Shown: positions 30,758 to 52,900 of the stretch, in pieces | How positions within the stretch are numbered: the stretch's first letter is position 1 | Layout: each line of letters opens with the position of its first letter | Assembly (NCBI GenBank): GCA_016841205.1 | Contig: JAENZP010000009.1 | Coordinates: 5,808-65,274, forward strand | Reading direction: 5' to 3' | From: Desulfoscipio geothermicus | Lineage (GTDB): Bacteria; Bacillota; Desulfotomaculia; Desulfotomaculales; Desulfallaceae | Length of the DNA stretch: 59,467 nucleotides | Translations under genes and position numbers: made by a program | Notes under the pieces: generated by a model | What the model was told of the DNA's origin: nothing | The model's database searches: none | What the model saw: only the letters and a program-made list of their open reading frames with translations

Positions 30758-30874
30758 ACATGTTCACTTTTTTATTTATAATATGCAGGATTTTAATAGA
30801 AAATGAAGAAAAATTACTAATTTAATTAGAATAAATTGTATTAAGGTCTTTTTACCCAAACGGGGGTTAGTATT

Positions 30875-47464: not shown

Positions 47465-48547
47465 TCAGTAAGCGTTGGTAAGGGATACCTTGGTTGCACT
47501 TCCTTCTATAGCTAATTGGCGAAGGTCCTCCTGTCGTACAGTCTCCTTAATTACAATATCGTTTTCCATTTTCAAATTAATTTCTTCATTTGTAGCCAAT
47601 ATCTTTACTACCGGCCTAAAAACCAGGCCAGGGTTTTGTTTGTAAATCTGGGCAATGTAGCCGTTACTTAAATACACTATGCTCCCAACTGGATATGGTA
47701 CAATGCACTTTATAAAACCATTAATAGTAACGGAGGTAAAATTAATTTCACTGGATGCTATTATCATTTCATAAGCTTCATGGGGTGGCAGTGCTTTCCG
47801 ATAAACTCTATCTGCAGTCATAGCACTGTATACATCAGCTATAGCGCAAATATAAGCTAATTCGTTAATTTCATTGCCATGTAGCCCGTTAGGGTAACCA
47901 GAGCCATCATATCTTTCATGATGGTTCAATACTATTTCCGCACTTATACGATTTACATCGTGTTGTTTAATTGTTTCATAACCATAAACAGGATGTTTTT
48001 GCATTATACTAAACTCGGTTGGTGTTAGTTTGCCCGGTTTTTTTAATATTTCGACTGGTATTTTTGTTTTGCCAAGGTCATGAAGAATACTGCCAACTCC
48101 GAGGCAAGTAAGTTTTTTTCTGTTGTAACCCATCTTAGCCCCAATTGCTATAGCTAATATTGTGACGTCAATTGAATGGGTATACGTGTATGTATCTGCC
48201 AAACAAATTTCTGATAGACTTCCGACTACTGCTTTACCTGATAATATTTCGTCAATAATATCTTCTATTGTTTTAAGAAGTGCTGCAAAAACTTTTTTAT
48301 CAAAGCTTTTATTCCATTCCTTAATAACTTTTAAAGCGTTTAACTGAATTTCTTCTCTTATTTCATCTTCCCGTTCAATTTCAAAACTACTTGTTACCCT
48401 TACAGACATTACTCCTGTGCGGTGCATGGCCAAAATGTTTCGTGCTGTTAAAACGGAACCTTTTTTAAGTAATAGTTTACCATTTTGGTCATAGAGCGGT
48501 TTTTCCAGTATCATTCCAGGTAATAAATATGAAGTTAATAACTTAAT
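47465..48547 (-). CDS. HD-GYP domain protein, predicted c-di-GMP phosphodiesterase
   Basis: 361 aa if translation starts at ATT 48547. N-terminal region (about 90 aa, LLPGMILEKPLYDQNGKLLL) is a typical DUF-like lead of HD-GYP proteins. The catalytic domain has HSIDVT, HDLGKTKIP, HPVYGYE, HHERYDGSGYPNGL, and DVYSAMTADRVYR, all HD-GYP hallmarks. It hydrolyses c-di-GMP to pGpG/GMP. The strong AGGAGGG (48554-48560) precedes no ATG/GTG/TTG: the ATT at 48547 (6 nt after it) or an upstream TTG 48571 overlapping the site are the only options. It lies 3 kb from a c-di-GMP riboswitch. Confidence 0.9.
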   Translation of the reverse strand: MKLLTSYLLPGMILEKPLYDQNGKLLLKKGSVLTARNILAMHRTGVMSVRVTSSFEIEREDEIREEIQLNALKVIKEWNKSFDKKVFAALLKTIEDIIDEILSGKAVVGSLSEICLADTYTYTHSIDVTILAIAIGAKMGYNRKKLTCLGVGSILHDLGKTKIPVEILKKPGKLTPTEFSIMQKHPVYGYETIKQHDVNRISAEIVLNHHERYDGSGYPNGLHGNEINELAYICAIADVYSAMTADRVYRKALPPHEAYEMIIASSEINFTSVTINGFIKCIVPYPVGSIVYLSNGYIAQIYKQNPGLVFRPVVKILATNEEINLKMENDIVIKETVRQEDLRQLAIEGSATKVSLTNAY

Positions 48548-48571
48548 AGAAATCCCTCCTACAAAAAACAA

Positions 48572-48793
48572 TAGAAATAACGATCGCTGTTGTTGACGTG
48601 AGTAAGTTATGAGTAAAATATGATAAAATTCTACACAAAGATCTAATAACCCTTGATAAAAAATAGAATAATTTGTCGAATTAGAATTATTTTTAAAATC
48701 TTAAAAATTTAAATAATATTTTCGTATAAATCAATAACAAGTTATCCTGGCCACTACGGCTGTTTTTTTTTGGCTTCATAATAACTAATTGTA
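48572..48793. other. AT-rich divergent region between HD-GYP gene and fliD
   Basis: Over 220 bp without ORF; carries leaders for both divergent genes. No clear minus-strand promoter identified. Confidence 0.4.
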
Positions 48794-51210: not shown

Positions 51211-51230
51211 AAGTGGTGGGAGGTGATTTG

Positions 51231-51599
51231 ATGAAAATAACAGGTATAGATCCTGTTGCAGTTACCGAACTAAGTACATATAAACCATTTGTTCCTGAAG
51301 AACAGCAAAATGAATTCGGGGCTAATAAAAAGACTGATACCGAACAACAAAAACAGTTGGAGGAAAACTGCTACTCAAAAAAAGAATTGGTACAATCCCT
51401 TGAAACTTTAAATAATACCATGAAAGATTATCAGACTGAACTCCGTTTTGAAATTCATGAAAAAAGCGGCGAAATAATGGTAAAAGTACTTAACAGTGAA
51501 GACGGTAGCGTGATCCGTGAAATTCCTCCTGAAAAGGTGCTAGAAATGGTTGGGTATTTCAAAGAGATACTAGGCATTATGGTGGACAAGCTAATTTAG
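51231..51599 (+). CDS. flaG: FlaG family protein
   Basis: 122 aa from ATG 51231, with GGGAGGTGA 7 nt upstream; the GTG at 51213 lies before it. C-terminal FlaG domain: LRFEIHEKSGEIMVKVLN, VIREIPPEKVLEMV, ILGIMVDKLI. Affects filament length in other species. Last gene of the fliD operon, followed by a terminator. Confidence 0.93.
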   Translation: MKITGIDPVAVTELSTYKPFVPEEQQNEFGANKKTDTEQQKQLEENCYSKKELVQSLETLNNTMKDYQTELRFEIHEKSGEIMVKVLNSEDGSVIREIPPEKVLEMVGYFKEILGIMVDKLI

Positions 51600-51607
51600 A
51601 GTTTTAA

Positions 51608-51640
51608 AAAGCCTTGCTACAAAAGTAAGGTTTTTTAAAT
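51608..51640 (+). terminator. Rho-independent terminator after flaG
   Basis: Stem CCTTGCT / AGTAAGG (with one G-U pair) then TTTTTT. Closes the fliD operon before the flgB promoter region. Confidence 0.8.
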
Positions 51641-51661
51641 AGTTAGTTAAGTCTGTTTATA

Positions 51662-51690
51662 TTGATTAATTATAAATAACTTGATATAAT
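51662..51690 (+). promoter_or_regulatory. Sigma-A promoter upstream of the riboswitch
   Basis: TTGATT 51662-51667, 17-nt spacer, perfect TATAAT 51685-51690. Transcription would start near 51697, about 40 nt before the aptamer, matching the layout of riboswitch-controlled operons. Confidence 0.65.
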
Positions 51691-51735
51691 CTGACAAAAG
51701 TAATGTTTTTATGCAAGTAATAACTATATATGTTT

Positions 51736-51814
51736 AGTGGGCATAACCGGTGAAAGCCGGCGACGCAAAGCTATGGGTCTACGGTGCTTACAGTACTATG
51801 ATTGCCAAGCTGCA
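51736..51814 (+). promoter_or_regulatory. c-di-GMP-I riboswitch (GEMM-I aptamer) upstream of the flgB operon
   Basis: The conserved core is visible: GGCATAACCGG, a GAAA tetraloop hairpin CCGGTGAAAGCCGG (P1b type), then GACGCAAAGC, GGGTCTACGG, and GATTGCCAAGCTGC. These match the class I c-di-GMP aptamer consensus. A terminator follows directly, so ligand binding would control read-through into the flagellar operon. The same arrangement (Cd1 before flgB) is known in C. difficile, where c-di-GMP switches the operon off. Confidence 0.9.
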
Positions 51815-51821
51815 AGTTGAA

Positions 51822-51858
51822 AATAAGAAGTCACTTGTGGCTTCTTATTCTTTTTTTT
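51822..51858 (+). terminator. Riboswitch terminator
   Basis: 13-bp stem AATAAGAAGTCAC / GTGGCTTCTTATT (one G-U) followed by C and eight T residues. Sits 8 nt after the aptamer; the expression platform. Confidence 0.9.
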
Positions 51859-52015
51859 CGCTAGGCATGTCCGCCGAGCCGATGGGTCGAAAGAAACCGG
51901 AGTTGATACGGGGAGACTGCGAATGAAAAAGATGTAGTAATGGAAAAAGTGGAAGAAACGTTGAGGAAAATAGCTGAGGTGTTATCTTGCACGATTTGAT
52001 AAAATTAGATAAATA
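51859..52015 (+). other. Leader between riboswitch terminator and flgB, no gene
   Basis: About 160 bp. Holds a GC-rich stretch (51865-51930) and a possible 19-codon peptide at 51940-51999 without a good ribosome site. I see no family. Confidence 0.35.
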
Positions 52016-52043
52016 TTGACATATAATTCAGAATAAAAATAAT
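52016..52043 (+). promoter_or_regulatory. Possible sigma-A promoter downstream of the riboswitch
   Basis: TTGACA 52016-52021, 16-nt spacer, AATAAT 52038-52043, 46 nt before the flgB start. If active it would bypass riboswitch control. Confidence 0.4.
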
Positions 52044-52088
52044 AATTTGCAGGAGATTTTGCATTATATTTCATCCGGAGGGATATTT

Positions 52089-52463
52089 ATGAATATCTTT
52101 AACGATATGTTATCTGTTATTTTAACTAAACAATTAGACGCCTGTACTTTACGCCAGCAAGTAATTGCTAATAATATCGCTAACTTTAATACACCTGGCT
52201 ATAAAAAGTCTGAGGTATCTTTTCAGCAGCAGTTAAAAAAGGTTTTGGAAAACAGCCATATTAAACAAAACAATAATTTAACCGAATTAACACCCGAAAT
52301 AATACAGGTTAAGGATACTGCAATGAGGGTTGACGATAATAACGTAGATATTGATCAGGAGATGGTCAACCTGGCTACGAATACCCTGTTATACAGGTTG
52401 GCAACAAGAGTAAAAAGTGATAAAGACAATACATTAAGCTATGTGATTAAAGGAGGTAGTTAA
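52089..52463 (+). CDS. flgB: FlgB, proximal rod protein
   Basis: 124 aa from ATG 52089 with CCGGAGGG upstream (an in-frame codon at 52047 lies before it). Motifs: TLRQQVIANNIANFNTPGYKKSEVSF and VDIDQEMVNLATNTLLY. First gene of the rod-basal-body operon. Confidence 0.95.
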   Translation: MNIFNDMLSVILTKQLDACTLRQQVIANNIANFNTPGYKKSEVSFQQQLKKVLENSHIKQNNNLTELTPEIIQVKDTAMRVDDNNVDIDQEMVNLATNTLLYRLATRVKSDKDNTLSYVIKGGS

Positions 52464-52465
52464 CA

Positions 52466-52900
52466 ATGGCTTTGTTTGACAGTTTTAGTATCAGCGCTTC
52501 AGGTATGACAGCAAACCGTTTTTGGGCGGACCTGATAGCCAATAATATCGCTAATATGAACAGTACAGGCAAGCCGGGTGACCTAAATAATCAACCATAT
52601 CAACGCCAAGTGCCTGTTTTTGCAGAAATATTACAACAAAAAACAAATATTACTCCGGTACAGCATGGACGAGGCATACAAGTTACCCGGTTAGTCTACG
52701 ATAACAGCGACCCGAAATTGGTATATGACCCGGGCCATCCTGATGCTAATCCAGAAACGGGATATGTAGCTTATCCGAATATTAACCTTTTAAATGAAAT
52801 GGTAAACCTTATGTCGGCCACTAGGGCTTATGAGTCCAATGCTACAGTTTTTGAAGCAGCTAAGAGTATGGCAGTTTCAGCACTGGAAATGGGGCGTTGA
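52466..52900 (+). CDS. flgC: FlgC, proximal rod protein
   Basis: 144 aa, ATG 52466, AGGAGG upstream. SFSISASGMTANRFWADLIANNIANMNST and NINLLNEMVNLMSATRAYESNATVFEAAKSM are standard FlgC. Two nt after flgB. Confidence 0.96.
   Translation: MALFDSFSISASGMTANRFWADLIANNIANMNSTGKPGDLNNQPYQRQVPVFAEILQQKTNITPVQHGRGIQVTRLVYDNSDPKLVYDPGHPDANPETGYVAYPNINLLNEMVNLMSATRAYESNATVFEAAKSMAVSALEMGR

Follow-up and report, generated by a model that had tools for sequence, protein, structure and literature searches.

How transcription of the flagellar operon that begins with flgB is controlled in Desulfoscipio geothermicus, and whether it can escape that control, is the question raised by a leader within the 59,467-nucleotide stretch of DNA analyzed here (the window). 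The preliminary description had placed a c-di-GMP-I riboswitch and a terminator behind a promoter upstream of flgB, and had proposed that a second promoter-like pair lets some transcription bypass the switch. Our explanation, which as a whole we consider very probable, combines a gated OFF switch with a sigma-H-like bypass promoter that belongs to the wider family and has lost its -10 half here, and with the remnant of an intron in the leader. The aptamer, the terminator, the alternative pairing, the intron remnant, and the loss of the -10 half are established from the sequence; the features of the leader are collected in Table 1.

Table 1 Features of the flgB leader and its surroundings (positions are those of the window).
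Feature	Position	Strand	Evidence or remark
flaG (FlaG), end gene of the upstream fliD-fliS-...-flaG group	51213..51599	+	Pfam PF03646, 95.6 bits
Hairpin and T-run 3' of flaG	51606..51636	+	By eye; absent from the terminator scan output
Sigma-A-type promoter TTGATT-N17-TATAAT with TG extension	51662..51690	+	Predicted to drive the riboswitch leader; shuffle p = 0.010
c-di-GMP-I riboswitch aptamer (RF01051)	51730..51817	+	67.9 bits; Rfam gathering score, 35
Switching strand GCUGCAAGU, aptamer 3' side and antiterminator 5' side	51809..51817	+	Pairing analysis
Intrinsic terminator (stem of 12 bp, four-nt loop, T8)	51822..51858	+	Sequence, structure scan
Antiterminator 3' side ACUUGUGGC, overlapping the terminator loop and upper stem	51833..51841	+	Pairing analysis
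5' end of decayed group II intron	51857..51898	+	83.9-88.1% identity to the L053, L054, and L057 copies
Remnant of the RT gene 3' end, joined to the intron 5' end via an internal deletion	51899..51959	+	85.5% identity to L053
Candidate promoter-like pair TTGACA-N16-AATAAT	52016..52043	+	11/12 consensus letters, p = 0.014
TTTGCAGGA, -35 half remaining from the sigma-H-like promoter of the family	52046..52054	+	Alignment, sigma-H model
flgB ribosome-binding site GGAGGG	52077..52082	+	By eye
flgB (124 aa), ATG at 52089	52089..52463	+	Pfam PF00460, 33.5 bits

The switch lies between fliD, fliS, and flaG on its 5' side and flgB-flgC-fliE-fliF-fliG-fliH... on its 3' side (the genes 3' of flgB match PF06429, PF02049, PF01514, PF01706, and PF02108), and the hairpin behind flaG probably closes the upstream operon. 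When the entire 59-kb window was compared with 4227 Rfam families, RF01051 gave the sole match at or above the gathering score, a full-length covariance-model match (model positions 1-87, E 3.3e-11). This is the Infernal comparison that the preliminary description had suggested for its c-di-GMP-I aptamer; the match lies well over the threshold, and the outcome named there as refuting the aptamer is absent. The core letters are GACGCAAAGC (51762-51771) and GGGTCTACGG (51775-51784) with a GAAA loop, and the GGC on the ligand-pocket side is intact, agrees with the RF01051 model consensus, and presumably includes residue 20 of class I switches. According to the available text of PMC6274999, a G20A change turns a class I c-di-GMP riboswitch towards cGAMP. 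The riboswitch itself is a further member of the known RF01051 family.

The terminator and the upstream promoter of the preliminary description also stand. The terminator stem (51822-51849, 12 pairs closed by a loop of four) begins 4 nt 3' of the aptamer and leads into eight T residues (51851-51858). The promoter consists of TTGATT (51662-51667), a 17-nt spacer, and TATAAT (51685-51690) with TG 5' of the -10, lies about 38 nt ahead of the aptamer, and beats 99% of dinucleotide shuffles of the stretch before the aptamer. The same TTGATT/TATAAT pair is present in two related genomes (G003 and G010), and an upstream promoter is significant (p < 0.05) in four of the nine riboswitch loci of the window's family and not in the other five. 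A consensus scan of 51300-52500 returned six promoter-like sites against 4.3 (sd 2.3) expected and one terminator against 0.5 (sd 0.7) expected; since the promoter count is near expectation, a promoter consensus alone is weak evidence.

The sign of the switch follows from how its strands can pair. The 3' strand of the aptamer, GCUGCAAGU, forms nine of nine possible pairs with 51833-51841, and none of 300 strand shuffles is equally stable. The aptamer and the terminator occupy separate, mutually compatible stretches. This conserved alternative pairing, by contrast, breaks both, so that the antiterminator and the aptamer-plus-terminator arrangement are mutually exclusive: the GCUGCAAGU strand is used in both. 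Among the nine expression platforms of the window's family (f1; named members Desulfoscipio, Desulfotruncus, and Desulfallas, with Desulfoscipio placed in the Desulfallaceae), the pairing is kept in the same register at nine of nine positions in six and at eight of nine in two, with compensatory variants in L012 (GCTGCAAAC/GTTTGCGTC) and L013 (GTTGCAAGT/GCTTGCGAC); L011 is without an antiterminator in this register (-3.5 kcal/mol, with 228 of 300 shuffles as low). For the seven pairing-positive platforms other than that of the window, between 0 and 7 of 300 shuffles are as stable, and of 20000 trials in which strands were re-paired between species, 294 reached a summed stability as good as that of the true pairs. 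The OFF-type layout, with an aptamer-compatible terminator and a competing antiterminator, is thus found in the window and in eight of the nine family platforms, L011 being the exception. The same layout is described for the Cd1 riboswitch of Clostridioides difficile in the available text of PMC9262584, in which the ligand-bound aptamer and the terminator likewise coexist and the antiterminator uses the aptamer 3' strand; unlike that folding model, the folding proposed here is a prediction from sequence.

Given the nine-of-nine pairing and its retention at eight or nine positions in eight of the nine family members, the flgB riboswitch is most likely an OFF switch; c-di-GMP binding and the sign of the response are inferred. 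The opposite sign, in which the ligand would prevent termination and c-di-GMP would turn flagella on, appears very unlikely to us. Class I switches of either sign exist (PMC9262584, as far as its available text goes), one C. difficile class I switch responds in the opposite direction (PMC3649979, likewise in part), and the full leader, folded with the ligand left out, favors the terminator over the antiterminator (-38.2 versus -34.8 kcal/mol); against these points stands the compatibility of aptamer and terminator, together with a conserved pairing that disrupts both, which is the OFF layout of PMC9262584. The predicted fold of the nascent RNA up to 51841 is the antiterminator and that of the full leader is the terminator, and as the latter is the more stable without ligand, the open state of an OFF switch would rely on kinetics.

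In the proposed OFF mechanism, a sigma-A-type promoter would start a leader that carries the c-di-GMP-I aptamer. Binding of c-di-GMP would keep the 3' strand GCUGC (51809-51813) within the aptamer and block the antiterminator, whereupon the terminator would fold and transcription would end before flgB; because the terminator folds in the bound state, high c-di-GMP would shut off flagellum building. With the ligand absent, the strand, extended to 51817, would pair with the terminator top at 51833-51841, and RNA polymerase would continue through the antiterminated leader into flgB-flgC-fliE-fliF-fliG-fliH. The parallel with C. difficile drawn in the preliminary description is sound: the flgB switch there, Cdi1_3, is a c-di-GMP OFF riboswitch that shares the Rfam family, the operon, and the order of promoter, aptamer, and early terminator (PMC3649979, available text). 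The C. difficile flgB leader is described as 496 nt long, containing an invertible 'flagellar switch' and served by a single sigma-A promoter (available part of PMC7438776). It differs from the present case in that the leader in the window holds an intron remnant and that f1 members bear a sigma-H-like promoter behind the terminator.

The intron remnant went unmentioned in the preliminary account of the leader. Its two parts find their places in a full copy, L057 (genome G022), which begins with the homologous 5' end followed by RF02001, contains the homologue of 51899-51959 inside the reverse transcriptase (RT) reading frame, and continues into domain V. With matches to RF02001 and RF00029 and an RT gene of 423 aa (TIGR04416, 444.9 bits against a cut-off of 300), this intact relative is a group II intron, having both domain V and a reverse transcriptase. 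The remnant sits directly behind the intrinsic terminator, as do other copies in nine of ten loci judged by eye; class C (IIC) introns insert behind intrinsic terminators (available texts of PMC4424553 and PMC8919778). Homology and position mark 51857-51959 as a dead group II intron, one of the kind that targets terminators. It shares with group IIC introns the insertion directly behind a terminator and differs in being dead and in having struck the conditional terminator of a riboswitch, so that the remnant would be transcribed when the gate is open. The same fused remnant occupies the same place in G003 and is absent in G005; its insertion and collapse would therefore be older than the split between G003 and the window species. 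In the proposed history, a group II intron would once have landed 3' of the riboswitch terminator, leaving the decayed piece that now lies within the leader.

That this stretch is instead a functional structured leader RNA is hard to credit: the leader is kept at 78% identity in G003, but the stretch has no Rfam match at or above the gathering score, is absent in G005, and joins an intron 5' end to an RT gene end across a deletion relative to the full copies. A second structured regulatory RNA at 51857-51959 was accordingly rejected in favor of intron debris by homology, and so was a functional intron in the window, where only the 5' end and the RT tail are present and no Rfam intron match reaches the gathering score anywhere in the window. 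A second shortened 5' end of the same intron lies behind a terminator elsewhere in the same genome (L054 1500-1680, G000:C17).

Between the remnant and flgB lies the pair that the preliminary description had proposed as a bypass promoter, TTGACA (52016-52021) and AATAAT (52038-52043) separated by 16 nt. The letters are there, and the pair is uncommon in shuffles of the stretch it occupies (p = 0.014 in the window, for the 228 nt from terminator to ATG; 0.022 in G003 and 0.028 in G005, three species that are not independent). A bypass from it is not established, the pair being present only in these three, and the element conserved across the family at this position is a sigma-H-like promoter, whose -10 has been deleted in the window. 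An active sigma-A promoter here, giving basal, switch-independent transcription of flgB, strikes us as possible though doubtful. The 11 of 12 consensus letters, the three p values, and a block (52015-52054) that can be aligned in G005, which is without the intron remnant, speak for it; its confinement to the three closest species, with nothing comparable visible in the other f1 leaders compared, an AATAAT that is not a strong -10, and an overlap with the conserved sigma-H -35 that could itself be the cause of its conservation speak against it. The pair may thus be a real sigma-A promoter of the window species, G003, and G005.

The family-conserved promoter behind the switch is, by its motif, sigma-H-like rather than the TTGACA/AATAAT pair. 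At about 70-85 nt 5' of flgB, and 3' of the terminator, f1 has the element TTTGCAGGA-N-GTTGAA. Its -10 half GTTGAA is present in G003 and G005 and deleted in the window, where AGGA stands 38 nt from the ATG as opposed to 69 nt in G003, which points to a deletion (31 nt net) that took the -10. We scored these regions with a weight matrix derived from 29 sigma-H promoters of C. difficile (section 17 of PMC7438776), for which 30 of the 40 table rows were typed, the ten without standard spacing being omitted, and one was dropped for lack of GAA. Eleven of twelve f1 flgB upstream regions score 11.3-19.1 bits (p 0.010-0.050, with a floor of 0.010), whereas between terminator and flgB in the window the best score is 4.8 bits (p 0.62) and the AGGA/GAA box combination is not found. 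The window species thus seems to have lost its sigma-H-like bypass. Across all 83 flgB loci, p is at most 0.02 in 43 and above 0.02 in 40, many of the latter from distant phyla, and the true strand scores above the reverse strand in 78.

The matrix also recovers sites of at least 11 bits at two other genes, upstream of spo0A in 14 of 16 relatives' loci (L144, incomplete, was omitted) and upstream of spoVG in 11 of 16, against 0.045 such sites per 300 nt in control stretches; the best spoVG match in the window's own genome (11.7 bits) is off the position seen in relatives, and a strict sigma-H regular expression finds only 4 of 17 spo0A and 9 of 16 spoVG loci. The assignment to sigma-H rests on this motif match, and the element could be the site of another sigma factor or of a DNA-binding protein, which we regard as unlikely. 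The model was borrowed from another order, with 30 of the 40 table promoters entered for it and the ten of non-standard spacing left aside; nevertheless, the boxes and their spacing equal those of expression-supported C. difficile sigma-H promoters (AGGA and GAA; available part of PMC7438776), the same sites precede spo0A and spoVG in these genomes, and each of 17 genomes has a sigH gene scoring above the cut-off. Going by the listed names, the 40 promoters of the sigma-H table of that source include none of a flagellar operon; most of the Desulfallaceae-type genomes covered here, in contrast, have the site upstream of flgB. On the sigma-H assignment, for which we infer both use of the factor and expression, the promoter 3' of the terminator should in the wider family start transcripts that bypass the switch; in the window species, with its -10 lost, transcription of flgB would have to come from the gated promoter, barring activity of the weak TTGACA/AATAAT pair.

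The relatives further show that the gate is dispensable. FlgB was found in 12 of the 16 f1 genomes of the relatives set and RF01051 before flgB in nine of these twelve; the three without a riboswitch before flgB (G001, G005, and G006) belong to the window's own genus. The nearest of them, G005 (FlgB 84% identical), retains the riboswitch terminator directly behind flaG, apparently the scar of riboswitch loss. Two other genomes of the genus, G002 and G004, matched neither FlgB nor MotB and are probably non-motile lineages.

The two inputs also differ in order between lineages, as seen when the 220 nt before the aptamer and all bases behind it were scored separately for sigma-H. In f1, sigma-H-like sites lie behind the switch in seven of nine loci at p <= 0.02 and in eight of nine at p <= 0.03 (the remaining locus is that of the window), and before the switch in none of the nine; as f1 is one family, this shared order counts as one event, not nine. 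Among 20 riboswitch loci of other lineages, such a site lies before the switch in 13 (p <= 0.02) and behind it in none, several of these loci having fewer than 100 nt behind the aptamer and little room for a site. The 20 comprise the core-pattern finds among 80 named loci and three extra loci sent to Rfam, together with L025 and L034; Rfam was run on part of the 80, L087, one of the three extra loci, had no match, L026 and L079 share a contig and entered the count as one, and RF03167 matches in L024 and L031, which do not precede flgB, were left out. For the flgB switches of L076, L095, and L118, the best-scoring family is RF03167 (c-di-GMP-I-GGC) instead of RF01051.

These orders suggest a reading whose chances we put as even: two groups of anaerobic spore-formers would have connected the c-di-GMP switch and the transition-phase factor sigma-H in opposite sequence. 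Sigma-H would be gated by the switch in other lineages and would bypass it in the Desulfallaceae, where starving cells would build flagella whatever the c-di-GMP level, the window species would have reverted to the gate only through deletion of the sigma-H -10, and sigma-H-like sites before motB and an HD-GYP gene could open its gate indirectly. We did not find the gated-versus-bypass arrangement or the change of order in the open (non-subscription) literature. What a riboswitch means would then depend on where a promoter stands, gated before the terminator and bypassing it behind, and the differing order between lineages, with the loss of the bypass by one deletion, amounts to a natural experiment on how swimming, settling, and sporulating are wired together. 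The intron remnant adds that a riboswitch terminator can host a terminator-seeking intron without destruction of the gate.

Beside fliD in the window lies an HD-domain gene with the stretch HHERYDGSGYP (47465-48571, minus strand), which we take to be of the HD-GYP, c-di-GMP-degrading type. A sigma-H-like site at 48655 (minus strand), 84 nt 5' of this gene, scores 19.5 bits; the site in G003 reaches 22.5 bits, and G005 has nothing comparable. Acting through this site, sigma-H could lower c-di-GMP and so open the switch indirectly. Another such site, at 30785 upstream of motB (30875), scores 15.9 bits (18.8 in G003 and 18.2 in G005), with none of at least 9 bits before motB in the other 11 loci checked. 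The motB site thus occurs in 3 of 14 loci and the HD-GYP site in two of three, both confined to the closest species.

Elsewhere in the same genome, c-di-GMP-I switches precede reading frames that by eye resemble a RodZ-like helix-turn-helix protein, an HD-domain protein, and a PilB-like ATPase (L001, L003, and L004). Two weaker RF01051 matches (L005 1501-1583, 44.8 bits; L006 1501-1584, 41.2 bits) have an altered core in which CTAGAGCC replaces CAAAGCC, and each lies some 330-345 nt 5' of a near-identical reading frame resembling, by eye, a potassium-transport regulator; they are perhaps a riboswitch variant with a different ligand.
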